From a virus, in IMG/VR virus record IMGVR_UViG_3300032265_002245, positions 1 to 30,771 of that record: a stretch of 30,771 nucleotides of DNA; one strand, written 5' to 3'. Made by a program: the position numbers and the translations under genes. Each line of letters opens with the position of its first letter. Within the stretch, counting starts at the first letter, position 1. Below the pieces are notes generated by a model, which saw only the letters and a list, made by a program, of their open reading frames with translations, made no database searches and was not told where the DNA came from. Shown piece by piece: positions 2,087 to 30,480 of the stretch.

Positions 2087-2845
2087 ATGAGAAAGATCAT
2101 CAGTAGTTTGCTAGTGACCTTAGTCGCTTTTAGTACCACAGTCAACGCCGCGCCGCTAGGGAGCGTAGTTCTGGCAAGTAAGACGCACTACGAAATCCCT
2201 AAGGGCGACCACACTATCTACGTTACCGGCGTGATCAACGGAGCGTCTTTTACAACCGCGAACAAGATCGAGCGTTTGTCGGCGGCATCAAGCGATGACA
2301 TCAACCTGTTCATCAACTCACCTGGTGGCATGGTAGCAGTCGGTCTTCAGATCATCCAGGCCATGGATATCGCGCGGGCACGCGGCGTTAAGATCACATG
2401 CTCGGTAGGCATTCTAGCAGCCAGCATGGCATTTCAACTATTGCCGCACTGCGATAAGCGGTATGCCATGAAACATTCATTGTTGCTATTTCATCCAGCA
2501 CGTGCTCAAATCCAGGGTGGAGTAACGGCCGAAGAGGCGGCAATGATTGCCCAAGAATTACGACGCGTAGATTACCGTGCAAACCTAGAAAATGCCGCCA
2601 TGATGGGTAGTCCTAGTCCAAGGTGGTTGGAGGTACATCACCGCAACGAGACGCTGTGGGAGGCACAAGATCTAGTGGCTGAAACTAAGAATAACTGGTT
2701 GACTCTAGTAGATGTGCTCAGCGTTCCGGGTGGAGCTTTTAACCTAGAAAATGAAGGTGGCGCAAACGATCGGGCTAACCCTGCAGTTCATAACTATCTG
2801 AAGTTCGAGTTTGACGGCAAGCCATGGATCATAGTGAACATCTGA
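2087..2845 (+). CDS. Exported ClpP/SppA-superfamily serine protease-like protein
   Basis: A 252-residue protein starts after a GGAG site. It begins with a typical signal peptide (MRKIISSLLVTLVAFSTTVNA; likely cut near residue 21). The mature part has the ClpP/crotonase-like core: INLFINSPGG (72-81), a helix, then VGILAASMAF with a candidate nucleophile Ser113, and LLLFHPA with a candidate His136. These match 'INSPGG', 'GQAASMGA' and 'HQP' of ClpP. The acidic member of the ClpP triad is not obvious; the expected region reads HHRNETLWEAQDLV. ClpP normally acts in the cytoplasm with an unfoldase, so an export signal suggests a stand-alone periplasmic peptidase or envelope role. The C-terminal ~50 residues lack a clear family match. 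Confidence 0.72.
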   Translation: MRKIISSLLVTLVAFSTTVNAAPLGSVVLASKTHYEIPKGDHTIYVTGVINGASFTTANKIERLSAASSDDINLFINSPGGMVAVGLQIIQAMDIARARGVKITCSVGILAASMAFQLLPHCDKRYAMKHSLLLFHPARAQIQGGVTAEEAAMIAQELRRVDYRANLENAAMMGSPSPRWLEVHHRNETLWEAQDLVAETKNNWLTLVDVLSVPGGAFNLENEGGANDRANPAVHNYLKFEFDGKPWIIVNI

Positions 2846-2846
2846 G

Positions 2847-3155
2847 ATGTACAGTTCCGTAGAAAATGGTAGAACATCTTCTCTGTGCCGATGGATGGCA
2901 GACCACGTCGGCGCAGATAGCTTAGTGTTACTAAGATTCGGTGAGGTCGTCCAGGTGGTGATGAAGTTCGGCGACCAGTACTGTAAGACGTCTTTTGTTC
3001 AACCTAAGTACGGTTCAACCGGTGAGGTCTTGTCCCACCTATTCAAGATACGCGACGAGTTCTTTCTTCTTGGAATGCACAGCATCACGCAGGAAGAAGG
3101 TATAAAACTGATCGAAAAGATAGACAGTTTAGATCAACTCGTCACGGTTAGGTAA
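2847..3155 (+). CDS. Hypothetical protein
   Basis: A 102-residue protein that I do not recognise. It starts one base after the preceding stop. It alternates short strands (DSLVLLRFGEVVQVVMKFGD) with a helical C-terminal half, fitting a small alpha/beta fold. No signal peptide, membrane segment or metal motif is visible. Gene order suggests co-transcription with the flanking small genes. Confidence 0.6.
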   Translation: MYSSVENGRTSSLCRWMADHVGADSLVLLRFGEVVQVVMKFGDQYCKTSFVQPKYGSTGEVLSHLFKIRDEFFLLGMHSITQEEGIKLIEKIDSLDQLVTVR

Positions 3156-3158
3156 GAC

Positions 3159-3668
3159 ATGGGCACAGATATCCATTGCTTTCTTGAAAGAAAGACCTCA
3201 AAAGGGTGGGCGGTAGATCCAGGTCACCTCAGAGACAGGGACATGGGTGATCCGCTAGAGATAGCATCTCTTGCCGGCAGAAACTACCATCTATTTGGTA
3301 TAGTTGCCGGAGTCAGATCTAATGCTAAACCAATCAAACCGCCTAGAGGGTTCCCAAAAGACGCCTCAGAAGAACTAACTCGCGTCTACCAGCGAAACCC
3401 ATGGTACCACACGGCGACATATCTTACTCCAAGAGAGCTTCAAGCCGCTCTAAATCGGTACAAGCGAGAGTATAGTGTTCTGTATGCAGAACAACTTATC
3501 GATCTAACTGACGAGATACCAGAGCAGGACGCTTTCTCGCGCTACGGTACAAGCGATGCGGTGCTTCGATATATCCGATCCTATAAAGAATCCGAGAAGG
3601 TAGACAACATACTGTTATCTTCAAAAAAGAACACTAGGTTTAGAATAGTGATCTGGTTTGATTCGTAA
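3159..3668 (+). CDS. Conserved phage protein with MGTDIH N-terminus
   Basis: A 169-residue protein beginning MGTDIHCFLERKTSKGW, followed by NYHLFGIVAGVRSNAKPIKP with PRGFPKDAS, then 'WYHTATYLTPREL'. This order (MGTDIH start, 'R.Y.LF..LAGVR', 'P.RG.P.D.S', then an H-containing segment before 'LT..EL') is a recognisable conserved phage and bacterial hypothetical family. I know no experimentally assigned activity. The conserved Asp/His residues at the N-terminus (D4, H6) could bind metal, but that is a guess. It follows the previous stop closely. Confidence 0.7.
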   Translation: MGTDIHCFLERKTSKGWAVDPGHLRDRDMGDPLEIASLAGRNYHLFGIVAGVRSNAKPIKPPRGFPKDASEELTRVYQRNPWYHTATYLTPRELQAALNRYKREYSVLYAEQLIDLTDEIPEQDAFSRYGTSDAVLRYIRSYKESEKVDNILLSSKKNTRFRIVIWFDS

Positions 3669-3677
3669 AGGAGCAGA

Positions 3678-4079
3678 ATGAGTACGTCGGATGGTTTCGT
3701 ACCTCATATAGAAGAGATGGATCTTAGCAAATTGTACGACCGTGTTTTCATCGTAGCAGTGTCAACCGGTCCTCGCGATGACGGCAGGATGTTGACATCG
3801 ACCATGCATGGCCCATACGATTTTGACGAGATGGTCGGCGAGGTTGGGAGGATGTGGGCGTCTGATCAGAACAATGCGAAAGTCTATTCTATAGAAAAAG
3901 ATCACTCTAAGAGATCGAAATGGTTAGATGCCAAAACCATCGATTACATTCAGGAAAAATACGCGGACATTCTTTTATTTAGAATAATCGGCTCGGATAG
4001 CGATAAGAAATACACTACAGAAGCCGGAATAGTTCAAGATAAAATGCCCGCATTTGATATCGACAAAACTATTGAGTAG
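3678..4079 (+). CDS. Hypothetical protein
   Basis: A 133-residue protein starting after a strong AAAGGAG site (3668-3674). I see no known motif. The N-terminal half (KLYDRVFIVAVSTGPRDDGR, then a 'MHGPYDFDEMVGEVGRMW' segment) has a strand-turn-helix pattern. The C-terminus is charged. No membrane or signal sequence is present. Confidence 0.6.
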   Translation: MSTSDGFVPHIEEMDLSKLYDRVFIVAVSTGPRDDGRMLTSTMHGPYDFDEMVGEVGRMWASDQNNAKVYSIEKDHSKRSKWLDAKTIDYIQEKYADILLFRIIGSDSDKKYTTEAGIVQDKMPAFDIDKTIE

Positions 4080-4083
4080 CAAT

Positions 4084-4263
4084 ATGTCTATAAAAAAACT
4101 ACCTGATAGCGTGATCTTCACCGCACTGTTTATCATGCTGCTATCTACGGCGCTGGCAATATGTGTCATCTACATTATTAGATCTGTGATCAGATCTGTG
4201 GTCGAAAAACTACACCCGTCCTCGGTGGAGTCTGAGACAAAAAGCATGGAAAGTCTATTATGA
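4084..4263 (+). CDS. Small membrane protein, possible holin-like partner of the transglycosylase
   Basis: A 59-residue protein from ATG 4084, five bases after the preceding stop; an in-frame upstream start at 4054 lies inside the preceding gene. It has one long hydrophobic stretch (~residues 9-32, VIFTALFIMLLSTALAICVI) flanked by Lys residues, then a charged tail. Its stop overlaps the start of the lytic transglycosylase gene (ATGA at 4260-4263). Small one-helix proteins beside cell-wall hydrolases are often holins or spanin-like, but nothing here proves it. The Shine-Dalgarno match is weak. Confidence 0.55.
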   Translation: MSIKKLPDSVIFTALFIMLLSTALAICVIYIIRSVIRSVVEKLHPSSVESETKSMESLL

Positions 4264-5012: not shown

Positions 5013-5569
5013 GCGAGATTGGAAGAATTCCAGTGCTAGACAAGGGTTATGTGCAACTTAGATGTGCTGCACCTAGCGGTCTAGAACTCGATAAGATAAG
5101 ATCTGAGATCTATCGCGGCAACTTCAACCCAACGCTGATAGAGATGACCCAAATATACTTAAACGTCAAATGCCCCTACTTTCTGCTTATACCGCTGATT
5201 TCATCTGGAATACGAGCAATTTCCTTGCCATTGATGCCAATGGATGCCTACGTTCCAGCGTTAGACTCAGTTAAATCTGGGAACGTAAGCATCGACAAAG
5301 ACATAGCAGAATCAATGGCGATCACCATCGATTCGTTGATGTTAAATCAGAAAGCATATGTAAAAGATGGTTGTAATTCGTTCGTGGCATCCATCACCAC
5401 GCCGGTGGCGGCCTATTGGAATGGCGTGATGTATGGTTCTCTTAAAGACTGGTTAAGATTTTGCAAAGTGCCTGGCTTGCACCCCCTGGTAAAAGAATAC
5501 CAAATGTCGATATCAAATGCGATTTCGATCGAATACAAAAACCTAGAGGAATTGAACGGACGAGCGTGA
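5009..5569 (+). CDS. Degenerate ThyX-like protein (flavin-dependent thymidylate synthase fold)
   Basis: A 186-residue protein starting at GTG 5009, about 8 nt after AAAGGGA and overlapping the preceding stop (GTGA). It follows the layout of ThyX: an N-terminal 'VLDKGYVQL' strand, a segment 'TQIYLNVKCPYFLLIPL' in place of 'F.FHVK.PIFVARQW', and a C-terminal 'YWNGVMYGSLKDWLRF' in place of 'FYWT.N.RSL.HFL', followed by a helix. The ThyX signature RHRx7S is absent (the region reads ISSGIRAIS), and the 'HAQWEIR' segment is reduced to HPLVKEY. ThyX proteins are usually 220-250 residues. It is probably not a working thymidylate synthase. It may be a repurposed nucleotide-binding or structural relative. 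Distant similarity judged by eye; moderate confidence. Confidence 0.5.
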   Translation: MSEIGRIPVLDKGYVQLRCAAPSGLELDKIRSEIYRGNFNPTLIEMTQIYLNVKCPYFLLIPLISSGIRAISLPLMPMDAYVPALDSVKSGNVSIDKDIAESMAITIDSLMLNQKAYVKDGCNSFVASITTPVAAYWNGVMYGSLKDWLRFCKVPGLHPLVKEYQMSISNAISIEYKNLEELNGRA

Positions 5570-5784
5570 TGGCAAGAGGTAGATCGCCTAAAAATAAAGA
5601 AGAACCGAAGAAATCAGACAACGTCGAGGGTTTTTACTGGACTGACATGACGTACACCTGTCCAGTACGAGGCAGGGTTACCGAGAAGATAAAGGTAAAA
5701 AAACTTAAATCCCAAGAAACTCCAAAGACAATACCAAATTACGAGCTAGAGATCCTTAAGGAGGATGTGGACGATGTCGAGTAG
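5569..5784 (+). CDS. Small basic hypothetical protein
   Basis: A 71-residue protein from ATG 5569, overlapping the preceding stop by one base (TGATG). It is rich in Lys/Arg at the N-terminus (MARGRSPKNKEEPKK) and acidic at the end (EILKEDVDDVE). The middle contains a single Cys in TYTCPVRGRV. No family is recognised. The frame is open further upstream, but that part lies inside the ThyX-like gene and is a shadow. Confidence 0.55.
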   Translation: MARGRSPKNKEEPKKSDNVEGFYWTDMTYTCPVRGRVTEKIKVKKLKSQETPKTIPNYELEILKEDVDDVE

Positions 5785-6508
5785 AGTGAATCTGCCCAAT
5801 AAGTACGAACTGCTGAAATCTGCTGGTATCAGCTCAAAAACCTTTGACTCTCTGCCAAGAGACGTGGCTTTCTTCATAGAAAGATGCTTGATCCTAGGTA
5901 TACCAAACAAGTCAAATTGTCCATTTAAGCCTGGCGATGTTGTCATCAAGAAAGGACACAACGGAAATTTGATATCAGACAGTTACGGTATTGTCAGGAA
6001 GTGGGTTGTCACGGAGTGTCCATTCGGGGTTGTTATAGGTCGAATTATCGCAGGTAAGAGCAAGTTGGGTTCAGAAGAAGTCCTTAACAACCCTACAAAG
6101 TTCAACAACCATACGATAGAGATGGACCAAGACTATCTGGATAGTCTTATATTAGACCACGCCAGCTACGATCCATTTGAAAAATTATCTAAAAGCATAG
6201 CGATTCGGCGTAAAGCTGCGAAATACAACAAATCCATCTCTCAGAGAATCTTGACCGTCGACGAGACTGTTACGTTTCTTTGCTCTCTGAAGCAGGGGGA
6301 TAAAATCTGGAGCGCATCGACCCCGTTGGAACTAACCACCAATCCAAATTTAGACGGTGTAGTATTCTTTAAATACAAAGAACCACAAGGATTTCTTCTG
6401 ATAGAAGGTAAGGGTTCGGAGTTAAAAACAATGAGTACCGCCCACATATGGGGAAAGCTTGTAACCATTAAGAAACCATATTCAATTTGGAAAGTCCTCC
6501 AGATATGA
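5774..6508 (+). CDS. Hypothetical protein
   Basis: A 244-residue protein. ATG 5774 is preferred over the in-frame ATG 5765 because the AAGGAGG site at 5758-5764 is 9 nt before it, whereas 5765 directly abuts the site. I see no catalytic motif. The segment CPFKPGDVVIKKG, followed later by YGIVRKWVVTECPFGVVIG, suggests a small SH3-like beta barrel in the N-terminal half, which is a common fold in nucleic-acid-associated proteins. The C-terminal half is also strand-rich. It overlaps the preceding gene by 11 nt and the dCMP deaminase start by ATGA. Confidence 0.65.
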   Translation: MSSRVNLPNKYELLKSAGISSKTFDSLPRDVAFFIERCLILGIPNKSNCPFKPGDVVIKKGHNGNLISDSYGIVRKWVVTECPFGVVIGRIIAGKSKLGSEEVLNNPTKFNNHTIEMDQDYLDSLILDHASYDPFEKLSKSIAIRRKAAKYNKSISQRILTVDETVTFLCSLKQGDKIWSASTPLELTTNPNLDGVVFFKYKEPQGFLLIEGKGSELKTMSTAHIWGKLVTIKKPYSIWKVLQI

Positions 6509-9156: not shown

Positions 9157-9184
9157 AAAAAGCCTCTCGAAAGAGAGGCTTTTT
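9157..9184. terminator. Bidirectional intrinsic terminator
   Basis: The 8-bp stem AGCCTCTC/GAGAGGCT with a GAAA loop is extended by A/T pairs into a 12-bp stem. It has a T-run on one side and an A-run on the other. It therefore works as a rho-independent terminator from both directions, between the convergent + strand block (ends 9154) and - strand block (ends 9203). Confidence 0.93.
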
Positions 9185-10210: not shown

Positions 10211-13200
10211 TTAGTGTTTATGTGAACCAAATGGAGCTTGCGTATACCCTGGTTTTACAACTTCAAAATGCTGCATCATACCCATATCTTGATCATCTAA
10301 CAAATGGCAGTGCATAAGGAACAGACCTACATAATCTTCATACTTTGTCCGGAGACGAATCTCGCCTCTTGATCCAGCGTTAGCTTCATCTTTTACAACC
10401 TGATTATTTGGATCTTCTTCGAGGGTTCCCACTGGCGTAGTAGCAGTATCCTCAAATTGTACACCTGAAATTGCAATCTCATTTGCATAAGAACTATATG
10501 CAGTATTGCTTCCCGGTGCAGGATTTACGACATTGTTTGCTCCAAATTTCGCATCCCGATAGCCCATAATCTGGAAGTAGAAGATATGCACATGGAACCC
10601 GTGAATTACGTCCGAAAGGTTTTCAACGATGTATTCTTCGCTGGTATTCAAATAAGCAACAGGACGAGTAAAGTCAGAATACGGCGAACCGTTCATATAC
10701 GTTGACATGCTTCCCATTCCTGCAATCCCGCGTCCATGAATCGCAAACGAGAAATGCCTTCTTCTTGAAATGTATCCTTCCAAAGCATCAGTAGGCAGTT
10801 CTATATTATGGTAATAATAATGGTCTGTTAGAACTTCTACGATTTCAAGAGGGGCATTGCCTGTCGAAGCATTGCTTACCGTTGAATTTTTCCACAGATC
10901 GTAAGTAAAATCGTAAGTTCCAGAAGCTGGCAGGGTAGTGGTAGAACCTGGAAGATTACTGATTACAAATGTAGCCGCGTCTGTTGGCGAAATTTCGGAT
11001 ATGACATACTCAACACTATTAATCCGTAATTTAACACCAATTTCCAAATGATGGGGAGAATCATCTGGCATCACCACTGTAGCTGAGCTACCATCAGTGG
11101 TCACTGATGCACCTGTAATTGTCCATTCAGTAGGTTTTCCAGCAAAGACTTGCGCATGAGTTTCTGTGGTCAAATACTGCAAATCAGAATGATCTTCATC
11201 TTTTGATATTGGGCTGTCTAGTCCAAACTGTGGCAACAAAGTTCTATCAAGAAGTTTTGCAACGTGATTTGATGCCGATGAATCTAACGATCCATCGTAT
11301 TTTAACGAAGCAATTTGAACAGGGGCATCCAATTTATCAAAAAGTTCGGTTTCAGAAACCGGCAGTGTATAGATTGGATATACATCGCCGCTCGACACGG
11401 ATACTCCAGACTTCGGAATTGCAAAAAACTCAAAACGCTGGCCTGGAATTATGATTACATAATTCAATCGCTGACCCGCTGGGTTCATGACAAAATCTGG
11501 ATCAAGCGGAACGGCATTAATTGTTCCAGTTGGCAGTTGTGGAATACCGTCTTTTCCTACAATCACGATATCGTGATCTTTTACAGCAATACGGAAAAAG
11601 GTGATGCCCGTCATGTTAACCATGGAGAATATTTTTAGCTCACCTGTTTTTGCAGAATAAACCGGACGTTTTTGACCATTAACTGCCGGCACCCACCGCA
11701 CATCAACCGGGATACAACTAGGTGTAGCCATCGAACTATTTGTATGAACATGGGGAACATTCCCTTCAAGAGCAGCGCACGAGCAAATGCACTTAGGATC
11801 TAGGTTGTCCCGATAATATGGACTTAAATCTTTTGGCTGAACAGAAGAGACTTTTTGTCCATCAGCAGATGGGGTAGCATGTGGGTCATACATATCAAGA
11901 GGCAAATTAGAAACATAATCAACCCAAGTGAGTTCGTTGTGGCCATTTAAATTATCGGCCCACTGAATCCTTTGCAAAGCAACAAACTCACGCTCTACGC
12001 CGGCTGCTTTTAGACGGTTTTGATATGGACCTTCAATCATAATCAGTCCAGCAGCACCACGGCCAACGACGTTCATTGAGCCGCCATGACCATGGGGGTG
12101 ATACCATTGTAGGCCACCAAAATGGCTATCAGGAATTTCGTAGAGATACCGAAGCTTTGAACCTGACTTGACCGAACGCATCACGTTATCGCCGAACATG
12201 TCTGCTCTGACATGGAAGCCATGTGTATGCAAATTTGTTTGGTTACGCTGCATTACATGACTCATCCAAATCGTGTTTGCATCGATTACAGCTTGATCGG
12301 TATTTTGATTTGACTCAGTAGTGTAAGCCCTATCGTCAATGTGAGCATGTAAGGCTTCCATGCGCTGCATACCACCATCCGACCATGGCTCAATCTCGCT
12401 GAGATCTTCTACTTCATTTTTAAACTCTACTGCAATTCTGTCACCCGGCTTTGCGGTCAACAAAGGACCAGGGATGACACCGTTGAAATTTGCTGTTCTG
12501 GTCATAATATGACCAAGGGCAAACGCATCATCGGTGTTCAATTCCAGCGTGACGTTCAACAAGTCGTTAGGGATATTAGGATCTGTAGAGTACGATGGCC
12601 AAGACATACGTCCTGCGTTTGTGCTAGAATCAAACGGCGCTGGTTTCTTTGCGGGTTCGCCAGAATGTTCAATGTACGGATTTTCAGCTTCTGGAAGAGA
12701 AGAACCTTTGTCGGTTTCTGACAAAGTGATCTTGCCTTTTTCAACCCACTGTCCATCCAATCTTCTATATTCAGTAACCAACTCGCCTTGAGCGTTAGTC
12801 CCAAGTCTCCACGAATCGTGTTCGCCTGAACCAAGATATAGCTTGCCACCTTTAGTTCTGTTGCCAACCCGGACTTTTTGTTCGTCAAGCGCCTTCTTGT
12901 TGTCAATCAAAATACCAGTTTCGCAGCTAAGATTGATGTTGTCAGAAGTATTCCAGGCGTTATTGGCATAATCGTATAGCCAGAAATGGTCCCGGAAGCC
13001 CTTGAGAACAATACCGCCAAAACTAGCGTCAAGATCTCCAACGGTTGACGGATTAGCTCCACCGTTCAAGACAAGGCGCTTGCTATCGACAACCGAAGCT
13101 TTATGGGTTTCTGCTGGAACAAATTGCTGAGCAGGATCAGTACTTCCCAGCAAAACAGGGCGGCATTGGGTGAAGTCGCCCGATGCTAGGCCGCTATAAC

Positions 13201-13339
13201 CTAAATCTAACCAAGGCTTAGTGCCATCTCCAATTTTAAATTTTGAAGTATCTGTTTCAATGCCAACTTCACCGGCCTCAAGAACCGGATTTTGGCTGAC
13301 CCAATGTTCACTAACACCATGTTTTAGTAGTATTTTCAT
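10211..13339 (-). CDS. Virion-type multicopper oxidase (tail-fibre N-terminus plus laccase-like domains)
   Basis: A 1042-residue protein starting at ATG 13339, ~9 nt after AGAAGG. Residues ~1-210 are phage virion-like: EAGEVGIETDTSKFKIGDGT (21-40) is a typical fibre motif, followed by strand-rich sequence ('HFWLYDYANNAWNTSDNINL'). Residues ~258-1030 are a three-domain multicopper oxidase. The motifs are HTHG (H371, H373), WYHPH (H414, H416), HGFHVH (H913, H916, H918) and HCH (H1010, C1011, H1012) followed by GMM (M1021). All eight histidines for the trinuclear copper site are present. The type-1 site has H913, C1011 and M1021, but the second His of HCHxxxH is Asp1016. A strand-rich insert (~736-815) resembles phage decoration modules. 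Such enzymes oxidise phenols or metal ions using O2. No signal peptide is visible, as expected for a virion protein. Activity is uncertain because of D1016. Confidence 0.85.
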   Translation of the reverse strand: MKILLKHGVSEHWVSQNPVLEAGEVGIETDTSKFKIGDGTKPWLDLGYSGLASGDFTQCRPVLLGSTDPAQQFVPAETHKASVVDSKRLVLNGGANPSTVGDLDASFGGIVLKGFRDHFWLYDYANNAWNTSDNINLSCETGILIDNKKALDEQKVRVGNRTKGGKLYLGSGEHDSWRLGTNAQGELVTEYRRLDGQWVEKGKITLSETDKGSSLPEAENPYIEHSGEPAKKPAPFDSSTNAGRMSWPSYSTDPNIPNDLLNVTLELNTDDAFALGHIMTRTANFNGVIPGPLLTAKPGDRIAVEFKNEVEDLSEIEPWSDGGMQRMEALHAHIDDRAYTTESNQNTDQAVIDANTIWMSHVMQRNQTNLHTHGFHVRADMFGDNVMRSVKSGSKLRYLYEIPDSHFGGLQWYHPHGHGGSMNVVGRGAAGLIMIEGPYQNRLKAAGVEREFVALQRIQWADNLNGHNELTWVDYVSNLPLDMYDPHATPSADGQKVSSVQPKDLSPYYRDNLDPKCICSCAALEGNVPHVHTNSSMATPSCIPVDVRWVPAVNGQKRPVYSAKTGELKIFSMVNMTGITFFRIAVKDHDIVIVGKDGIPQLPTGTINAVPLDPDFVMNPAGQRLNYVIIIPGQRFEFFAIPKSGVSVSSGDVYPIYTLPVSETELFDKLDAPVQIASLKYDGSLDSSASNHVAKLLDRTLLPQFGLDSPISKDEDHSDLQYLTTETHAQVFAGKPTEWTITGASVTTDGSSATVVMPDDSPHHLEIGVKLRINSVEYVISEISPTDAATFVISNLPGSTTTLPASGTYDFTYDLWKNSTVSNASTGNAPLEIVEVLTDHYYYHNIELPTDALEGYISRRRHFSFAIHGRGIAGMGSMSTYMNGSPYSDFTRPVAYLNTSEEYIVENLSDVIHGFHVHIFYFQIMGYRDAKFGANNVVNPAPGSNTAYSSYANEIAISGVQFEDTATTPVGTLEEDPNNQVVKDEANAGSRGEIRLRTKYEDYVGLFLMHCHLLDDQDMGMMQHFEVVKPGYTQAPFGSHKH

Positions 13340-13404: not shown

Positions 13405-16400
13405 TTAGACTGTGCCGCCATTAATAACCGATATTACTTCAACGCCTCCTGATACTGGGTTAATGGTAGAAGGAATTATGCTTAAGTATCGGCACAACAC
13501 TCGATCACCTTCTTGTGCACCTTCAGATTGACCAACTGCAAAAGAACCCGTGAAAGTTAAACTAATTTTTCCATCTTGGAAACTTGTCGTATAATCTTCA
13601 CCTTCGCAAAGGAATAGACGACCTACAAAACACATCAAAGAGCCTGAAATAAACGTATTTACAGGAGTAAATTCCACAAATCCATTAGTAACATCAATAG
13701 AAGTCAAGGTAATAGAAGCTGTTTGAGGACGATAAGAATCAATTTCAGCTTTTAGTGCAGAATCCGAACTTGCGCGACTAACTGCTTCTGCACCTAGCGC
13801 AGATTCAATTGCAGTATCGGCAGCAGTTCTTGCTGAATTTTCCGCATTAATATTAGACTGAAGTACGGATTCAGCAGCTTCAGCGCGGCTAACTTCCGCA
13901 GCTAAATCAGATGTCAAAGTAACTTCTGCAGCTTGGGCACGGCTAACTTCTGCAGCCAAGCTGCTAGAGATTGCACCTTCGGCAGCTTGAGCGCGGGATG
14001 CCTCAGCGGCAATAGCCGAGTTCTCACCAGAGGTTGCTGCAGCCACAGTGTCATCGACATACTTCTTGTTAGCAGTGTCAGTATCTGCAGTAGGAGTGGC
14101 TACGCCAGATAGCTTGTTACCGCCAAAGTTGACGTTATACTGCAGGAATGACTGGTCAATATAGCCATCGTTAGTGGTTTTGATGGTACGCAGGTTGCCG
14201 CCTGGGACAAATTCTGCATCAAGAGAAGAATATATGGAGGCAACATCTGCATCGGCAAGTTGGTTGTTAAACAACGCCAGCTTGTCCATCGACCCATTAA
14301 ACCCCTGCCCAATCCGGATTTTAAAACCGCTATTGATCATTTGATAGTTTGCAATGGTGTCCGAAGTCTGCGAATTTAGCACACCATCAATATACAATTT
14401 AGTCCCGGCGATGCCCCAGCTTACAAGAATATGGTGCCAATTATTATCACCAATATTAACCATTTGAGAGGCAAGATTGCCATTTGGCCAATTGTAAAGA
14501 AGAACATCACTGCCATTCATGTTAAGCGCAGGACCGTACTGTCCGTTATCGGCACTCATTGTCCACACAACACCATATGAACCACTTGTTTTGATCCAGA
14601 CAGATACTGAGAAGTCGGTTGGGCTGGTTTTCCACCCATCTAGTGTGTGAACCGAGGAGGCGAACGCAGTGCCATCAAAAGATATTGCGGTTCCCGTGGC
14701 GGTTGCCCCTGGTAGACCGTAAATAATGTTTCCTGATGAAATTAGGTAGTTAGAACCAGCAGAATCAATAAGATTACCTTCAAGTTCGTCAAATTTCCAA
14801 ACCGACTTATAGTTCCAAATATTGCCAGAACCTTGTCCTGCAATTCTTTCAGAAAGAGGCGATTCTAGCTTCCATGTAGTTCCGTCATAACGAATTAAGT
14901 CACCGGCGCCAGCACCAGAAGCCGAAACATCTTGAAGTCCAGAAGCCAGTGTTAAATGGCTAAGCCTTGTGCCTTGTTGGCTAACAGTATTATTTAGGGT
15001 ATTTAGGTTGCTGCTTACGTTGTTTACGTTGTTGTTTACGCTGTTAATTTGAGCATCAACGTAATATTTGTTAGATGCATCGGTGCTTGCGGAAGGAGGA
15101 AGAACTCCGGATAGAATGTTACCGCCGAGGTTCAGGTTATACTGCAAGAAAGATGTGTCTAACTGACCAAGATCATTGGTACGCAAAACTCCAGTTGGCG
15201 ATCCAATGATTGCTAAAGAGTAGACATAAGCCTTGCCTTGATTTCCTGGGGCACCAGCCACAAGATGATCTGAGCCAAGCGAAACTGACATGCCCAGACC
15301 AGCGTAGCTTTGTGCATCAGAAGCAACAATTTTAGATCTTTGGCTCAAAGTTCCAGAACTTACGGTGTAAACGTAAACTGCACCATCATTGCTATTGGGA
15401 GTGGTTGACTGGCTTCTAGCTCCGACCGCAGCGATTGTACCATCTGGACTAAGGGCAACAGACCAGCCAAACTGGGAGTATGACTGTTTATCACCAGCTA
15501 TAACCTCTTGTTGCTGCGTATAACTTCCGGGCGTACCAGTAAACACAAAGGCAGCACCGTTGTTGTAACTGTTCTGACTAGAATGATTGTATGCACCGAC
15601 GATGACAGTGCTTGCATCGCCGCTAATGGCTAATGAGCTACCAAAATAGTCATAGTAACCTGAGACGCTAGGCTCTAATTTTTGAGCTTGCGTCCAAGTA
15701 GATCCGCTTCTGGTGTAAACGTAAGCAGAACCTTGGCCCCCAGCACCATTTGGGTTTTGATAAGGCGCACCTGCGACTACAGTATTACCATCATGGCTGA
15801 TGGCCACTTCATAGCCAAGTAGTTCGTAGTATTGAGCGTCACCTGGAACAAGGTGAGCTTCTTCAGCATAAGAAGTGCCAGTCTTTTTATAGACAAAGAT
15901 ACTTCCAGTGCCATTGTTCTCATTAACCGCACCAACTACAACTGTACTAGCATCACCGCTTATTCTGATCGAGTAACCAAACTGCTGATACCAAGCTGCA
16001 TTACTTGGTACAAGTTCTTGAGCTTGCGTCCAGGTAGACCCACTTCTGGTAAACACATATGCCGTGCCGCTAGTAGTGTTATCTTTATTTTGGTTATAGG
16101 CTCCAACGGCAAGCGTATTACCATCGTCGCTTAGGCTTACTTCGCGACCAAAGTACATGTAATAATTAGCATCTGAGGCAAGAAGTTTGGCTTGTTCTGT
16201 CCAAGTTCCATTTGACTTAGTGTAAACATGAACAGCGCCATCCGAGTAAAGGTTACCATTTTCTTGGTAAGCGCCAACGGCCATGGTTGTACCATCGGCA
16301 CTAATAGCAACATAGCCAAACTGGCTTCCATACTGAGGAGCGGTTAGCTCTTGCTCTAAACTAGCATAGCTTAAAGAACCAACGCTGATAGGAGCAACAT

Positions 16401-18693
16401 TTTCCCATTTACCAGCTGCAGCACTCCATTGAACAAGGTCTTTATCAGCCTTGTTTGCAATCATTACATCAGCCAAACCGTCAAGGTTCGGGCTTACGTT
16501 TTGAATTGCTAAGTTAATAGCAGCGACAGCTGCTTGACGAGCGGAAATTTCTGCGTCAATATTGCTTTGTAGGCTTGCTTCAGTAGCTTGAGCACGGCTT
16601 TGCTCCGCAGAATCGGCAGCTTCGCGAGCCAAAGCTTCCGCCTCGATACTCGACTGAAGGCTAGCTTCAAAGTCTTGAGCACGAGTGATTTCGTTATAAA
16701 TATTTGACTGTAGTGTTGCTTCAGCGGCCATTGCGCGACTGGATTCAGAACCAATAGCGGCTTGTAGGCTGGCCTCAACAGTTTGAGCGCGACCTATCTC
16801 ACCCGTCACTTGATTTGCCAAGTCAATATCTGCAGCTTGACGCTGTTGCGACTCGACATCAATATCTGAACGTAGTGCTGCTTCAGCAGCCATAGCTCGG
16901 CTTTGTTCAGCCGATTCTGCAGCTTGAGCACGAGAAGCTTCAGAGCCAATTTCACCAGCTATAGTAGTGGCAAGATTGGGATCATTGGCAAGAGACTGAG
17001 CCAATTTATTAAGGGTATCGAGTACAGCAGGAGCCGAATCAACTACTGCGGCAACCTTGGTATCGGTATAGGACTTGGCATCATTTAATGCCTGAGCTTC
17101 AGCAGCTTGTGCCCGTAGTGCTTCCGCATTAACAGCACCAGCCAAAGAAGTTTCAGCAGCTTGGGCGCGAGAAGTCTCTGCGGCAACGCTGCCGCTCAAA
17201 GAATTTTCAGCGGCCTGAGCACGCAATGCTTCAGAAGAAATCAAACCAGTGAGAGTGGTAACGTCAGTTTGACGCGAAACAGCCTCAGCTGCGATTGCAG
17301 CTTGGCGGTCAGAAGCTTCCTGAGCTAAGCCGGAAGCAAGACTAGCTTCAGCAGCTTGAGCACGACTGGTTTCAGCCATCAAACTCGAAGAGATTTGATC
17401 ATCAGCTGACTGACGAGCAGATGCTTCGCTAGCCAAATCAGAAGACAAACCAGCTTCGGCAGCTTGAGCGCGGGATGCCTCAGCGGCAATAGCGGCGTCT
17501 CTAGCTGATGCCTCAGCGGCAACAGCTGCTATGCGAGCACTTGCTTCACTGCTTACGCTGGAAGCGAGGCTTGCTTCGGCAGCTTGAGCACGACTGGTTT
17601 CAGCATCGACAGCAGCTTGACGAGCGGAAGTTTCAGAGAAAACAGCAGCTTGACGAGAAGATGTTTCTGCGTCGATAGCAGTTTGACGAGCGCTAGCTTC
17701 AGCTGCGATTGCAGCGTCTCTAGCTGATGCCTCAGCCGCAACAGCTGCTTGACGAGCGGTTGCTTCAGAATCAATAGCTATTTGTAGAGCCTGGTCGGCT
17801 GCTTCACGAGCCGATTGTTCTGCCGACACTGCTATTTGACGAGCGGTTGCTTCAGAATCAATAGCTATTTGTAGAGCCTGATCAGCTGCTTGGCGAGCAG
17901 TAGCTTCAGTACTATCTGCCAAAGCTCTGTCAGTAGCTTCTTTAGCCAAATCGCTAGTTAATTGCAAATCGGCTGCTTCGCGAGCTTGGGTTTCAGCTGC
18001 GTCAGCTATTTGACGAGCAGCAGCTTCAGAGCCAATTTGGTTAGCTACAGTGGTGGCAAAATTAGGATCGTCACCAAGGGCGTCAGCGAGTTCTTTCAAA
18101 GTATCAAGTACCGCAGGAGCGCTTGCTATTAAGTCAGAAATCTTCTGGTCGGCGTAAGCTTGAGCGTCAGATTTAGCCTTAGCAATGCTACCTTCGCCGG
18201 AGCCTTCGATTACGTCTAAACGGCCACTAAGCGCTGATTCTGCAGCTTGTGCTCTTGAAGTCTCAACTGCCAAGTCGCTAGCTATGCCAGCTTCAGCAGT
18301 TTCAGCTCTCAGAATTTCGGCGGCTAAATCGCTAGCAATAGAAGCTTCAGCGCCTTGGGCTCTGGACACTTCGCTTGCAAGGTCAGTGGTAAGTTTGCCT
18401 TCAGCAACTTCTGCGCGGCTTTGCTCTGCTGCGTCCGCGGCTGCTCTAGCAGAAGCTTCAGCAGACGCTAAACCATCCACGTAAGATTTACGAGTAAGAT
18501 CATTAGCGGCTTGTGGATCTACCGAAATCTTCGGATTGACACTAAGATACCATTCATTCGCATTACTAAAATAAAAAAGGTCACGATCTGAGCCCGAATT
18601 GTCTACGGCGCGCAGAGTCTGACCATTTAGAAGTTGGAACTTTGTTCCGTCTATCGCATTATTCTCGATAAACTTCTTTTTAATCTGAGACAT
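13405..18693 (-). CDS. Giant tail fibre: coiled coil, beta-propeller and LamG domains
   Basis: A 1762-residue fibre-like protein, ATG 18693 after AGGGGA. Residues 1-70 are a short fibre N-terminus ending RKSYVDG. Residues ~70-740 are an Ala-rich repeat of SRAQAAEASL and SARQAA units, a long trimeric-type coiled coil, with two 'APAVLDTL..LA..L' hinges (~190 and ~550). Residues ~773-1160 contain seven FG-GAP-like repeats, each with an '..FG..V.IS.DG...VGA' core and 'VYT...G.W' strand, fitting a seven-bladed propeller. Two copies of a '..FLQYN.N.GG..LSG' plus 'A.KKYVDD' hinge follow (~1190, ~1530). Between them, ~1294-1493, is a LamG/concanavalin-type lectin domain (FSVSVWIKTSGSYGVVW; NNWHHILVSW). 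Ala-rich helix resumes to ~1650, and a strand-rich end domain follows. It probably binds host surface glycans. Confidence 0.9.
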   Translation of the reverse strand: MSQIKKKFIENNAIDGTKFQLLNGQTLRAVDNSGSDRDLFYFSNANEWYLSVNPKISVDPQAANDLTRKSYVDGLASAEASARAAADAAEQSRAEVAEGKLTTDLASEVSRAQGAEASIASDLAAEILRAETAEAGIASDLAVETSRAQAAESALSGRLDVIEGSGEGSIAKAKSDAQAYADQKISDLIASAPAVLDTLKELADALGDDPNFATTVANQIGSEAAARQIADAAETQAREAADLQLTSDLAKEATDRALADSTEATARQAADQALQIAIDSEATARQIAVSAEQSAREAADQALQIAIDSEATARQAAVAAEASARDAAIAAEASARQTAIDAETSSRQAAVFSETSARQAAVDAETSRAQAAEASLASSVSSEASARIAAVAAEASARDAAIAAEASRAQAAEAGLSSDLASEASARQSADDQISSSLMAETSRAQAAEASLASGLAQEASDRQAAIAAEAVSRQTDVTTLTGLISSEALRAQAAENSLSGSVAAETSRAQAAETSLAGAVNAEALRAQAAEAQALNDAKSYTDTKVAAVVDSAPAVLDTLNKLAQSLANDPNLATTIAGEIGSEASRAQAAESAEQSRAMAAEAALRSDIDVESQQRQAADIDLANQVTGEIGRAQTVEASLQAAIGSESSRAMAAEATLQSNIYNEITRAQDFEASLQSSIEAEALAREAADSAEQSRAQATEASLQSNIDAEISARQAAVAAINLAIQNVSPNLDGLADVMIANKADKDLVQWSAAAGKWENVAPISVGSLSYASLEQELTAPQYGSQFGYVAISADGTTMAVGAYQENGNLYSDGAVHVYTKSNGTWTEQAKLLASDANYYMYFGREVSLSDDGNTLAVGAYNQNKDNTTSGTAYVFTRSGSTWTQAQELVPSNAAWYQQFGYSIRISGDASTVVVGAVNENNGTGSIFVYKKTGTSYAEEAHLVPGDAQYYELLGYEVAISHDGNTVVAGAPYQNPNGAGGQGSAYVYTRSGSTWTQAQKLEPSVSGYYDYFGSSLAISGDASTVIVGAYNHSSQNSYNNGAAFVFTGTPGSYTQQQEVIAGDKQSYSQFGWSVALSPDGTIAAVGARSQSTTPNSNDGAVYVYTVSSGTLSQRSKIVASDAQSYAGLGMSVSLGSDHLVAGAPGNQGKAYVYSLAIIGSPTGVLRTNDLGQLDTSFLQYNLNLGGNILSGVLPPSASTDASNKYYVDAQINSVNNNVNNVSSNLNTLNNTVSQQGTRLSHLTLASGLQDVSASGAGAGDLIRYDGTTWKLESPLSERIAGQGSGNIWNYKSVWKFDELEGNLIDSAGSNYLISSGNIIYGLPGATATGTAISFDGTAFASSVHTLDGWKTSPTDFSVSVWIKTSGSYGVVWTMSADNGQYGPALNMNGSDVLLYNWPNGNLASQMVNIGDNNWHHILVSWGIAGTKLYIDGVLNSQTSDTIANYQMINSGFKIRIGQGFNGSMDKLALFNNQLADADVASIYSSLDAEFVPGGNLRTIKTTNDGYIDQSFLQYNVNFGGNKLSGVATPTADTDTANKKYVDDTVAAATSGENSAIAAEASRAQAAEGAISSSLAAEVSRAQAAEVTLTSDLAAEVSRAEAAESVLQSNINAENSARTAADTAIESALGAEAVSRASSDSALKAEIDSYRPQTASITLTSIDVTNGFVEFTPVNTFISGSLMCFVGRLFLCEGEDYTTSFQDGKISLTFTGSFAVGQSEGAQEGDRVLCRYLSIIPSTINPVSGGVEVISVINGGTV
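13977..17493. repeat. 40-nt exact repeat 3.5 kb apart in the fibre gene
   Basis: Identical 40-nt stretches lie at 13977-14016 and 17454-17493, encoding the same SRAQAAEA unit in the N-terminal and C-terminal coiled coils. The coordinates span both copies. Recombination between them would delete the propeller and LamG domains (about 3.5 kb). Confidence 0.85.
17751..17880. repeat. 43-nt exact direct repeat inside the fibre gene
   Basis: The same 43 bases occur at 17751-17793 and 17838-17880, an offset of 87 nt (29 codons), so the reading frame is preserved. This indicates recent duplication of a coiled-coil unit. Confidence 0.9.
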
Positions 18694-20608: not shown

Positions 20609-21436
20609 TTAATATCCCGTGTCTTCTTCTCTATCGCCAATAGATACAGAGTTAAAATTTTGAGCGATCTTACTCTGATAGTCTAATAATAACTCAAGCT
20701 CACGGTCAGTCGGTTGTCGAACCGCAACTTCTCTAGCTATACGCTGGATATCGATATCTGTAGGCGTTTTTTGCAACATGCTAGAGTACTTCTCTTTTAT
20801 GGCGGCAATACGCTCTTTATCTGTTGGTGCCGGCTTGTCGGCGTGCTTCTCTTTGATCTCTTTTATCTTTTGATTTAGTGGTTTATCTATTTTAGGTATC
20901 ATCTTTTCTTTCAACACCGTAAGATGATCGCCGGTTGAGTCTGTTTTGGCGGTATGTCTAGCTTTTATCTGGTCGAACCCTTCCTCTGTTTTCTTCGTGT
21001 CTTGTGGTTTTTTACCAGAAATATCAAGATCTTCTACCTGATCATGAGATATGATGCGGCCATCATTCAATGCGTAGGAATTATGTTGCTGAGAACCCAT
21101 ATCGAGCACGTCTTTCACATCATGGTATCCGGGCTCTTTTTTAATCTTTATTTTCCATGACTTAGGTAAATCTTGCTTTTCAAAAGTGAGAACATCCTGC
21201 TTGTTGATGGGTTCACACGAATCTTTTTCGTATGGTTTCTTGCCGGGCGTAGGTTTATAACCATCCCAGCATCTGCCATCCTTCTTAACCATTTCTTTAA
21301 GTTCTTTTAGCTGACGACCAGCTTCCTTTAATTGCTCTGGCCTTGAACCACTGCGAAGCGTATCTACAAGACGCCTGTGTTCTTCCACTAGCTCTGGCTT
21401 TGATTTATACAACGATTTCAGCAGTTCTTTCAGCAT
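20609..21436 (-). CDS. Lys/Glu-rich hypothetical protein with CWDGYKPTPGKKPY motif
   Basis: A 275-residue protein. The ATG at 21436 is chosen, 6 nt after AGGAG; the ATG two codons earlier abuts that site. Residues ~55-75 carry a CWDGYKPTPGKKPY segment followed by a second Cys (SCEP), a small Cys-Gly motif seen in other phage hypothetical proteins. Much of the rest is highly charged helix (LNQKIKEIKEKHADKPAPTD) and probably coiled or disordered. It overlaps the preceding gene by 7 nt. Its place among head-type genes suggests an internal or scaffold-like virion protein; this is inference. Confidence 0.65.
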   Translation of the reverse strand: MLKELLKSLYKSKPELVEEHRRLVDTLRSGSRPEQLKEAGRQLKELKEMVKKDGRCWDGYKPTPGKKPYEKDSCEPINKQDVLTFEKQDLPKSWKIKIKKEPGYHDVKDVLDMGSQQHNSYALNDGRIISHDQVEDLDISGKKPQDTKKTEEGFDQIKARHTAKTDSTGDHLTVLKEKMIPKIDKPLNQKIKEIKEKHADKPAPTDKERIAAIKEKYSSMLQKTPTDIDIQRIAREVAVRQPTDRELELLLDYQSKIAQNFNSVSIGDREEDTGY

Positions 21437-22215
21437 CTCCATCTCCTGAGCGCTAAAGCTTTTCTGGTGGGCTTTCCGTGCTTGTCTTTCATTGGCCCTT
21501 TAACACCGCCCATCCTAGCGCAAAATGATCTACGGCGCTTGGCTCGTTTACCCTTAGGGTTCTTCTCACCTACTGCGGTTTGCAACTTAGAATCAGGATT
21601 CTCCCGACGATAAGCTTTTACACCAGCCGCGGTCATGCCGCCCCTAGGGGATTTATGTTCTGCTTTTAAACCCTTGTCCAGGATTTCTTCGTAATCGCAA
21701 TAATTTAGATAGTTTACGATAGCTTTTTCTAAGGTTTCTGAAACATCTTCGTCAAAAACCACGTCCAGCGTGCCATCTGAATAAGATTCGAAATATACAT
21801 CGCTTTTCTTTAGTCCGGCTGTGTAATCAGTACTAGATCCCGAGATGTAACGCTGATACAGACGCAGAGCTTCACCCTTGTTACCGGTGGAATGCAGATG
21901 GTTGATATGAGCAGTCATCATCGCACGATCTGGGTGACCCTCGGGAATAACCCCGCCGTGACGTGCAGCAATGGTGTTCACGTCAGTTGGCGGACTCTTA
22001 GCTCCATCGGTCTTATTTACCTTAGACTGCTCAGCGAAACAATCGTCACAAAGCCATTTTCTAGTACTCAGAAACCTGGACTTTCCAGTATCCTTTTCTT
22101 TAATGATGTTGGCGATCGGTACTGATTTATATTTACTAATCAACTTATTGCAGTTAGATCCACTGCATTTGACAGCATCACTTTTTACCGATCCCTTATT
22201 TAAAACGTTGTTCAC
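21430..22215 (-). CDS. Zn-ribbon-like protein with phage C-terminal SPRGGMTAAGVKAYRREN module
   Basis: A 261-residue protein starting at GTG 22215 with AAGGTG just upstream. The N-terminus has a four-Cys set (C17, C22, C56, C59), fitting a zinc ribbon. The C-terminal ~75 residues (SPRGGMTAAGVKAYRRENPD, then 'KRRRSFCARMGGVKGPMKD' and 'KPTRKALALRRW') are a conserved phage module of unknown function (DUF6321-like by memory, not searched). The module is strongly basic, so nucleic-acid binding is plausible. It overlaps the next gene by 7 nt. Confidence 0.72.
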   Translation of the reverse strand: MNNVLNKGSVKSDAVKCSGSNCNKLISKYKSVPIANIIKEKDTGKSRFLSTRKWLCDDCFAEQSKVNKTDGAKSPPTDVNTIAARHGGVIPEGHPDRAMMTAHINHLHSTGNKGEALRLYQRYISGSSTDYTAGLKKSDVYFESYSDGTLDVVFDEDVSETLEKAIVNYLNYCDYEEILDKGLKAEHKSPRGGMTAAGVKAYRRENPDSKLQTAVGEKNPKGKRAKRRRSFCARMGGVKGPMKDKHGKPTRKALALRRWRC

Positions 22216-23651: not shown

Positions 23652-23667
23652 TGTTATCACTTCTCAA
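23647..23667. repeat. 21-bp direct repeat, copy 1 (3' side of GIY-YIG gene)
   Basis: On the - strand it reads T, then TGAGAAGTGATAACAATGAC, identical to the copy at 24480-24500. It carries the stop (TGA), a GAGAAG ribosome site and the ATG of the next gene, so both junctions of the inserted gene keep working translation signals. Confidence 0.9.
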
Positions 23668-24484
23668 TGTATTCAAACGTTAGGCCCCTGCAGGTCCTAC
23701 CGGGCTGTGTTGCTGATCTAATGGATTTTGAAGAAACACCTATATCTTTAGCTGCGCAAGCCACAGAGTCGTAAACAACTCCAGTTTCTTTACACATAAT
23801 TTGTTTTCTGTGTGGTGAATTTAGGCACTGTTTATGTCTGTTTTCAGGAGCAGAGAAATATTCTTTTGCGTATTTTGACAAATTTGCTCTACGCTCCGGC
23901 GTAAACGATTTCTCAATACCTTCGCGGTGTTTACGTTTAAATTCTGGATCTAAAGATATTCTTTTAGCTGCAGCTGATTTTTTTGCCCTGCTTTCTTCTG
24001 AGTTCAAACTATCCATCATCTTGGCGCGAATATCTGGATCTTGCCATTGTTGTTTGGCTCTTTCTGAGGATTCGGCTTTATATTCTTTGGTATTGTGAGA
24101 CTCTTTGAATGCTTTAGAATTTTTCATAGAATTAGAAATTTTCTCTCTAATCTCTATAGTAAAACACTTTTTAAGCGCTTCACCAGAAATTCTTTCCGCT
24201 TTATCAGAAATATTATATCCTATATTTTTATCATAAGGTCTTAATTTATCTAAGTATTCTTGCTCGACTTTAATTAGTTCTTCTTCTTTGGTTTCTTGTA
24301 AAATCTCAAACTTAAAAACAGATATGTCGTATTTATCTGCTGCTCTTTGCAGATGTTTGCTGTGATGATCATTTCTTCTTAAATCAGATAAATGACACGA
24401 CCATCTAGACTCTATATGCTTACTTGATCCAATATAGATCTTGTCGTTTACTATGTTCGTGATTTTGTATATTCCGCAAGTCAT
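23657..24484 (-). CDS. GIY-YIG homing endonuclease (free-standing)
   Basis: A 275-residue protein. The ATG at 24484 is chosen because GAGAAG precedes it at good spacing; a GTG three codons earlier is too close. GIY (4-6) and YIG (17-19) motifs start the N-terminal nuclease domain, with R27 and a Glu-rich helix following. The middle is basic helical repeats (e.g. SSERAKQQWQDPDIRAKMMD), like NUMOD3-type DNA-binding elements, and the C-terminus has a NUMOD1-like segment (VYDSVACAAKDIGVSSKSIR). It would cut DNA at its own insertion site in phages lacking it and spread by recombination. The gene is AT-richer than its neighbours and flanked by 21-bp direct repeats, which marks it as an inserted gene. 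Confidence 0.88.
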   Translation of the reverse strand: MTCGIYKITNIVNDKIYIGSSKHIESRWSCHLSDLRRNDHHSKHLQRAADKYDISVFKFEILQETKEEELIKVEQEYLDKLRPYDKNIGYNISDKAERISGEALKKCFTIEIREKISNSMKNSKAFKESHNTKEYKAESSERAKQQWQDPDIRAKMMDSLNSEESRAKKSAAAKRISLDPEFKRKHREGIEKSFTPERRANLSKYAKEYFSAPENRHKQCLNSPHRKQIMCKETGVVYDSVACAAKDIGVSSKSIRSATQPGRTCRGLTFEYIEK

Positions 24485-24500
24485 TGTTATCACTTCTCAA
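24480..24500. repeat. 21-bp direct repeat, copy 2 (5' side of GIY-YIG gene)
   Basis: Identical to the copy at 23647-23667. Here it holds the TGA stop of the upstream structural gene (24497-24499), the GAGAAG site and the ATG of the GIY-YIG gene. The pair shows where the homing gene was inserted. Confidence 0.9.
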
Positions 24501-28220: not shown

Positions 28221-29147
28221 TCACGACTTAAATGCACCTACATCTTCTAAAGCTGCGATAAACTTCTCGCTGGTCATCTTGGTTACGCATTCCGCAAGCT
28301 CTAATCCTCTGGGGCATTTATTGAAGTTCCAGAAGTTAAGTGACCAATCTGATTCGCAAAAATTGCATGGTAAGTTCGGGATCACCGGAGCTGTTTTAGC
28401 TAAACCCCTATAGGGTATGCGATTTACCGAGTTAACGGTCGTAAAGCCGCAAACCACCGGAACACCGGTGGTGAACGCTAGGTGCACGGGACCACTATCC
28501 ATGCCGACGATCGCGCGAGCTTGCCCCATGATAGCGGCGAGCTCGCTCAACGAAGTCTGATCTCGAAGATCCACGCCAAAACCAGGGTAGTCGAAATCCG
28601 AGATAGCTAAGTTATTCTTCCAGATACTCATTGCACCCCGACGACCAACGTAAATTGGAGTCAGCCCCTTAGAGGCAACGTACTCGGCTATCTTGAGAAT
28701 CTCAGAGGGTAGAATAGTACGCTGCTTATCACGGTAGGTGGTTATGATTATTACTGATTTAGAGAAATCTATGCCGTAACGAGAGATGTCTACTGGCCTT
28801 AACGGAATGTATCTAAGGATATCATCCGACAACACCCGAGCTAACAGGTTTATTGAACCGTAGTGCGTGAGCTTCATCCTTGATGGAGTGAGCTTACACA
28901 CCTTGCCGCCGGGTCCTGGTGGATTCAGGTAGCGGATGGCAAAATCTGGTGGATACTTGTCGTCGTAATTGATTAGTTTATCATCGGGCACGAAGTGAAA
29001 TATCTCGCGGAAGTCTGAAAAGACTGCGACCCGGTAATCAGCGATACGATGAAAATGCTGGATGGCATACTTCACCGAAGGTGCGGCCGCGATGAGATCG
29101 CCGACGGCGGCGCTGTTTAAGGCATATATAGTCTTGTCACCTAACAT
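28221..29147 (-). CDS. Glycosyltransferase family 9-like (heptosyltransferase superfamily)
   Basis: A 308-residue protein with AAGGGG just upstream of ATG 29147. Two Rossmann-like halves are visible. The N-terminal 'SAAVGDLIAAAPSVKYAI' matches the 'S.GD.....P....L' strand-loop of ADP-heptose:LPS heptosyltransferases. The C-terminal 'GVDLRDQTSLSELAAIMGQA' and 'IVGMDSGPVHLA' (213-224) match the family's nucleotide-sugar motif. It has four Cys near the end (C261, C264, C278, C287) that could bind a metal. Heptosyltransferases modify LPS, but in a phage late block the acceptor could be DNA, a virion protein or the host surface. The neighbouring kinase fusion is 35 nt upstream. Confidence 0.8.
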   Translation of the reverse strand: MLGDKTIYALNSAAVGDLIAAAPSVKYAIQHFHRIADYRVAVFSDFREIFHFVPDDKLINYDDKYPPDFAIRYLNPPGPGGKVCKLTPSRMKLTHYGSINLLARVLSDDILRYIPLRPVDISRYGIDFSKSVIIITTYRDKQRTILPSEILKIAEYVASKGLTPIYVGRRGAMSIWKNNLAISDFDYPGFGVDLRDQTSLSELAAIMGQARAIVGMDSGPVHLAFTTGVPVVCGFTTVNSVNRIPYRGLAKTAPVIPNLPCNFCESDWSLNFWNFNKCPRGLELAECVTKMTSEKFIAALEDVGAFKS

Positions 29148-30409: not shown

Positions 30410-30441
30410 AAAAACTCCACGAGCAGTTAGCGCCCATAAAG

Positions 30442-30449
30442 TATTTATA
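30442..30449 (-). promoter_or_regulatory. T4-late-like promoter element TATAAATA
   Basis: An exact TATAAATA on the - strand lies 33 nt before the GTG of the GIY-YIG/kinase gene and after the upstream terminator. In T4 this octamer alone defines late promoters read with gp55; here its use depends on the sigma-like protein at 308. Confidence 0.4.
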
Positions 30450-30480
30450 CATATAATGTGCCAAAACAAAGCAAAGAAAA

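Follow-up and report, generated by a model that had tools for sequence, protein, structure and literature searches.

The multicopper oxidases (MCOs) known from viruses are free enzymes, presumed to benefit the infected cell. Published genes of this kind (PMC9859776, PMC11849493, PMC6563490, PMC9270025) include MCO1 of viruses of ammonia-oxidizing archaea (AOA). In bacteria, the three-domain MCOs represented by structures 2xu9 and 3zx1, CueO and CotA share a common fold, recognized by the Cu-oxidase_2 and Cu-oxidase_3 profiles, and a set of 12 copper ligands. The same fold also occurs with an altered copper site in SufI/FtsP, a cell-division scaffold in which 10 of the 12 ligands have been lost (PMC2661564).

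Phage particles carry enzymes of other kinds; those described to date mostly degrade sugars or peptidoglycan. Many phage fiber proteins begin with Mtd_N, a domain also found at the start of the major tropism determinant. Here we describe a phage protein that joins this anchor to an MCO. Each of the two parts is known, but their combination is new and the copper site is unusual; the open-access literature that we searched described neither an MCO on a phage fiber anchor nor a virion-borne MCO.

Domain architecture of the fusion protein

The DNA we analyzed, referred to here as the window, is a 30,771-nucleotide stretch of viral sequence (IMG/VR record IMGVR_UViG_3300032265_002245). The open reading frame that the initial annotation had placed at 10211-13339, with no strand given, proved to be real and lies on the minus strand. 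Three Pfam families exceed their curated cut-offs in its 1042-residue product, namely Mtd_N, Cu-oxidase_3 and Cu-oxidase_2, and the protein divides as follows.

10211..13339, minus strand: gene for the Mtd_N-linker-MCO protein P0001, 1042 aa, ATG start
13220..13303, minus strand: Mtd_N tail-fiber anchor, residues 13-40 (Pfam PF18454, 2.1e-7)
12590..13183, minus strand: linker specific to the phage proteins, residues 53-250 (76% identity across the three phages)
12026..12247, minus strand: Cu-oxidase_3, cupredoxin domain 1, residues 365-438 (Pfam, 3.8e-10)
11714..11791, minus strand: Cys-rich insert (Cys517, Cys519, Cys521, Cys542; His530, His532), with all six residues the same in each phage protein
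10781..11137, minus strand: insertion seen only in the phage proteins, separating cupredoxin domains 2 and 3 (approximately residues 735-853)
10256..10660, minus strand: Cu-oxidase_2, cupredoxin domain 3, residues 894-1028 (Pfam, 1.5e-10)

We searched 2.9 million viral contigs (IMG/VR) and 50,697 phage records (INPHARED) for relatives. IMG/VR yielded two that are full length, on contigs L001 (33.1 kb) and L002 (38.8 kb), and the window protein is ~64-66% identical to both. An assembly chimera can be ruled out, since the same fusion occurs in open frames on three contigs at this level of divergence. All three proteins start with a fiber-type anchor (Mtd_N at 2.1e-7, 1.4e-12 and 1.8e-7), and several PHROG tail families match residues 1-52. 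The N-terminal Mtd_N and a late-gene position are features shared with phage fiber and receptor-binding proteins of the Bordetella phage Mtd type, and minor tail proteins of Arthrobacter phage Shambre1 match residues 2-98 in two pieces (43%). The difference from these proteins lies in the C-terminal head, which here is an MCO.

A fiber-type N-terminus of ~210 residues had been proposed initially. The recognizable fiber domain is present but occupies only about residues 1-50; residues 53-250 form a linker that weakly matches PHROG 6002, annotated as "virion structural protein" (3.5e-4 with the window protein, 4e-5 with that of L002), and that was found in no other phage record searched. Modeled alone, the N-terminus and linker reached a mean pLDDT of 39, a very low confidence that made the model too poor for structure search.

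The assignment of the C-terminal part to the copper oxidases was borne out by profiles and by structure modeling. The two Cu-oxidase families (PF07731 and PF07732), above cut-off in the window protein, score above it in the L001 and L002 proteins as well; the middle-domain family PF00394 gives only below-cut-off matches, in L001 and L002. The NCBIfam models for CueO and PhsA match weakly, far under their equivalog cut-offs. An AlphaFold2 model built from a 22-row alignment had a mean pLDDT of 47 overall and of about 70-86 in the MCO core. This core matched Thermus laccase 2xu9 (Z 32.3, 422 residues), Campylobacter McoC 3zx1 (Z 30.2), CueO (Z 29) and SufI (Z 29), with matches to laccases and CueO-type three-domain MCOs spanning Z of about 28-32. 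Together, the profile and fold evidence rules out a chance motif match, and we regard an MCO fold on a fiber-type protein as well supported.

The phage protein nonetheless departs from 2xu9, 3zx1, CueO and CotA in several respects: its fusion to Mtd_N and the linker, its lack of a hydrophobic signal peptide, the Cys-rich insert, the insertion of ~110 residues, and the replacement of the histidine in HCHxxxH by aspartate. Cellular relatives are 23-27% identical, and those we aligned are missing the Cys-rich insert. For the insertion that separates cupredoxin domain 2 from domain 3, all tail-type matches are weak, including that to PHROG 25393 (0.0096). As judged from the sequences, these two additions suggest long residence in phages.

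Copper ligands and the type-1 site

We assigned copper ligands by alignment with cellular MCOs. The four motifs quoted in the initial annotation (HTHG, WYHPH, HGFHVH and HCH...GMM) were all located, in this order.

12218..12229, minus strand: copper motif 1, HTHG, residues 371-374 (His371, type 2; His373, type 3)
12092..12106, minus strand: copper motif 2, WYHPH, residues 412-416 (His414 and His416, type 3)
10586..10603, minus strand: copper motif 3, HGFHVH, residues 913-918 (His913, type 1; His916, type 2; His918, type 3)
10274..10312, minus strand: copper motif 4, HCHLLDDQDMGMM, residues 1010-1022 (His1010, Cys1011, His1012, axial Met1021)
10292..10294, minus strand: Asp1016, at the type-1 copper His position, Asp in all three phage proteins

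Despite an overall identity of ~23-27% to cellular MCOs, 11 of the 12 copper ligands are kept. All eight histidines of the trinuclear cluster (371, 373, 414, 416, 916, 918, 1010 and 1012) are present and invariant with cellular MCOs, and the type-1 Cys, one type-1 His and the axial Met are also shared with 2xu9, 3zx1, CueO and CotA. The exception is in motif 4, where HCH and GMM are present as first quoted but the ellipsis between them conceals a substitution. The motif reads HCHLLDD...GMM, not HCHxxxH...GMM, and the type-1 His position, five residues past the Cys, is held by Asp1016. Of the standard type-1 set of His, Cys and His, the protein retains His913 and Cys1011, and its second His is Asp1016; we therefore do not file it as a laccase. 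The earlier description as a laccase-like oxidase is weakened by this site, which carries Asp in three of three phage proteins. Sequencing error is ruled out by the identical residue in all three contigs.

In every cellular relative whose motif 4 was seen, the counterpart of position 1016 is His. The neighboring Asp1015 aligns with the acidic Glu498 of CotA. In a motif survey of 398 genomes from one phylum, the pattern HCHx3Hx3GM had matches in 153 genomes, and HCHx3Dx3GM had four matches, all outside MCO reading frames. A type-1 ligand set of Cys, His, Asp and Met was not found in the MCOs inspected, and a non-exhaustive look at the literature found no described HCHxxxD MCO family. Among relatives of 64% identity, ligand conservation alone would not prove copper loading.

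Gene neighborhood and exchange between phages

The MCO gene had been placed after a giant fiber gene in the late block, an arrangement that we confirmed and found repeated in three environmental phages that are largely unrelated.

13405..18693, minus strand: giant fiber gene upstream of the MCO gene, 1762 aa, with SRAQAAE coiled repeats, FG-GAP repeats and a LamG domain

The FG-GAP repeats of the giant fiber protein fall in seven stretches. In each of the three contigs, the gene immediately upstream of the MCO gene encodes a coiled SRAQAAE fiber (31-38% mutual identity), and the MCO gene lies among fiber genes of the late block; in L002, terminase and portal genes are a few kb away. The MCO-linked coiled fibers of L001 and L002 are shorter than the giant fiber of the window.

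The three contigs have almost no proteins in common besides the fiber and the MCO, to which the window and L001 add a glycosyltransferase of family 9 (GT9). This heptosyltransferase-like enzyme (window 28221-29147, L001 4397-5365; 48% identity) is the sole other clear gene that those two contigs share. At the DNA level, L001 and L002 have only the MCO gene in common (90.8% over 3059 bp, from the start codon to near the stop), with no other shared DNA at E 1e-4. Because sharing is confined to this gene, we conclude that it moves between otherwise unrelated phages.

The two copies are also unevenly diverged. Counted at residues identical in L001 and L002, synonymous differences amount to 0.55-0.59 at the two ends and 0.16 in the middle. 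The ends (residues 1-52 and 946-1042) differ synonymously at 63 of 112 codons, as against 132 of 822 in the middle (Fisher p 7e-19, a value that is optimistic because the segment borders were picked after viewing the sliding-window profile). The simplest reading of this mosaic pattern is that the middle part recombined between two resident copies, in which case both lineages would already have had the fusion. Synonymous divergence accompanied by few amino-acid changes points to purifying selection.

By tblastn, the fusion is absent from the 50,697 INPHARED records; those that matched did so either through Mtd_N only or through a conventional MCO gene, copper-resistance CopA being one example. 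In IMG/VR, pattern and relative searches found no fusion beyond L001 and L002, leaving a small comparison set of three phage sequences. The other viral MCO ORFs we inspected are stand-alone, of about 490-730 residues, with canonical HCHxxxH and, where the start could be placed, signal-like N-termini. Matches to the L002 terminase, the window thymidylate synthase and the L001 TnpB were too distant to name a host.

Several neighboring features of these contigs are of separate interest. GIY-YIG homing-endonuclease-like genes occur within the late block of the window at 23657-24493 (recognized by eye only) and at 29183-30469, the latter with a C-terminal ATPase-like part. The late region of L001 contains an IS200/IS605-type element (2588-4192; Y1 transposase and TnpB) and, among its structural genes, a DnaJ protein with a J domain and C-terminal domain (5362-6165). 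A late-block gene of the window (21430-22215) ends in DUF6321, known from several PHROGs of unknown function, and a low-complexity, alanine/tyrosine-rich coding stretch (AYAYAAAYAADAANAA...) occupies the contig edge at 1-255. The two gene blocks of the window converge on a strong inverted repeat of 12 pairs, bordered by runs of A and T (9157-9184), which is probably a shared terminator. Among the genes covered by a general scan there was no reverse transcriptase, the enzyme that would accompany an Mtd protein, with its variable and template repeats, in a diversity-generating retroelement.

Candidate roles of the fusion protein

We directly observed the domain content, the recurrent gene order, the ligand set and the exchange between phages; location in the virion, from the N-terminus and gene order, is inferred, as are copper loading and a role at the host surface. 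The reading that we favor, and to which we assign an even chance, is that the protein forms a copper-bound, host-contacting fiber head with an altered type-1 site and is not a general laccase. It would be a modular component of the tail fiber, or adsorption apparatus, whose Mtd_N end would attach, together with the linker, to the coiled giant fiber encoded just upstream or next to it, with the three-domain MCO head displayed outward. Given the retained ligands, copper would be held at least at the trinuclear cluster. Replacement of the exposed type-1 His by Asp may leave the type-1 center weaker, re-tuned or accessible to an external ligand; of that site the head retains Cys1011, His913 and the axial Met1021. 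Azurin lacking its exposed His can accept outside ligands, and by analogy the type-1 site here could be open instead of absent. The head would then act as a copper-loaded binding module touching the host surface or surroundings, with oxidase chemistry that is at most altered or narrow, and it would be as a host-contact module that it is traded among unrelated phages. A point against this reading is that a fiber assembled in the cytosol would need to gain copper after lysis. If the favored reading is true, a fiber-anchored MCO head traded between unrelated phages would mean that phages employ a redox-metal protein where they touch the host. The fixed His-to-Asp change offers bioinorganic chemists a natural variant of the type-1 site.

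The best-surviving alternative, which we consider possible but doubtful, is an active displayed oxidase, the idea put forward in the initial annotation. Here, an Asp-ligated type-1 copper would take electrons from a low-potential donor, for instance phenols, Cu(I), Fe(II) or Mn(II), and pass them via His-Cys-His to the trinuclear site, where O2 would be reduced at the host surface. Aspartate is able to ligate Cu(II), and the retention of the trinuclear histidines, Cys1011, axial Met1021 and Asp1015 (in the place of CotA Glu498) would suit such a route. However, the His position now held by Asp1016, equated by HCHxxxH spacing with His455 of the fungal PM1 laccase, is the one reported to take part in concerted electron-proton transfer from phenols (PMC10741624), and loss of this counterpart argues against plain laccase activity. 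The analysis gave no evidence for the initial suggestion that the protein acts on phenolic or metal-containing layers of the host envelope. The survey of 398 cellular genomes from one phylum also contained no Asp-form MCO. A virion-borne redox enzyme more specifically, with a fiber-tip oxidase whose Cys/His/Asp/Met type-1 site would serve O2 chemistry on the surface of the host as the phage adsorbs, we judge unlikely.

Less probable again is that the MCO fold serves as a mere binding scaffold or adhesin in the style of SufI/FtsP, without catalysis and with any copper being structural. SufI shows that an MCO fold can be used without being an enzyme (PMC2661564), the type-1 site of the phage protein is damaged, and exchanged binding heads are common in tail-fiber genes. 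Yet near-total ligand loss of the SufI kind is not seen here: SufI keeps 2 of 12 ligands, whereas the phage protein keeps 11, including the eight trinuclear histidines, which would be unexpected if copper were irrelevant. The intact trinuclear set therefore argues against a dead scaffold.

Very improbable, finally, is a cargo or auxiliary metabolic gene that acts in the infected cell and not in the virion, for example in host copper handling: free-standing viral MCOs do exist, such as MCO1 of AOA viruses (PMC9859776, PMC11849493) and the stand-alone IMG/VR proteins, and they likewise place an MCO domain in a viral contig, but those inspected are described as auxiliary metabolic genes and have signal-like N-termini, whereas the present protein lacks a signal peptide, is in frame with a fiber N-terminus and the phage linker, and has a fixed place after the fiber gene in three contigs.
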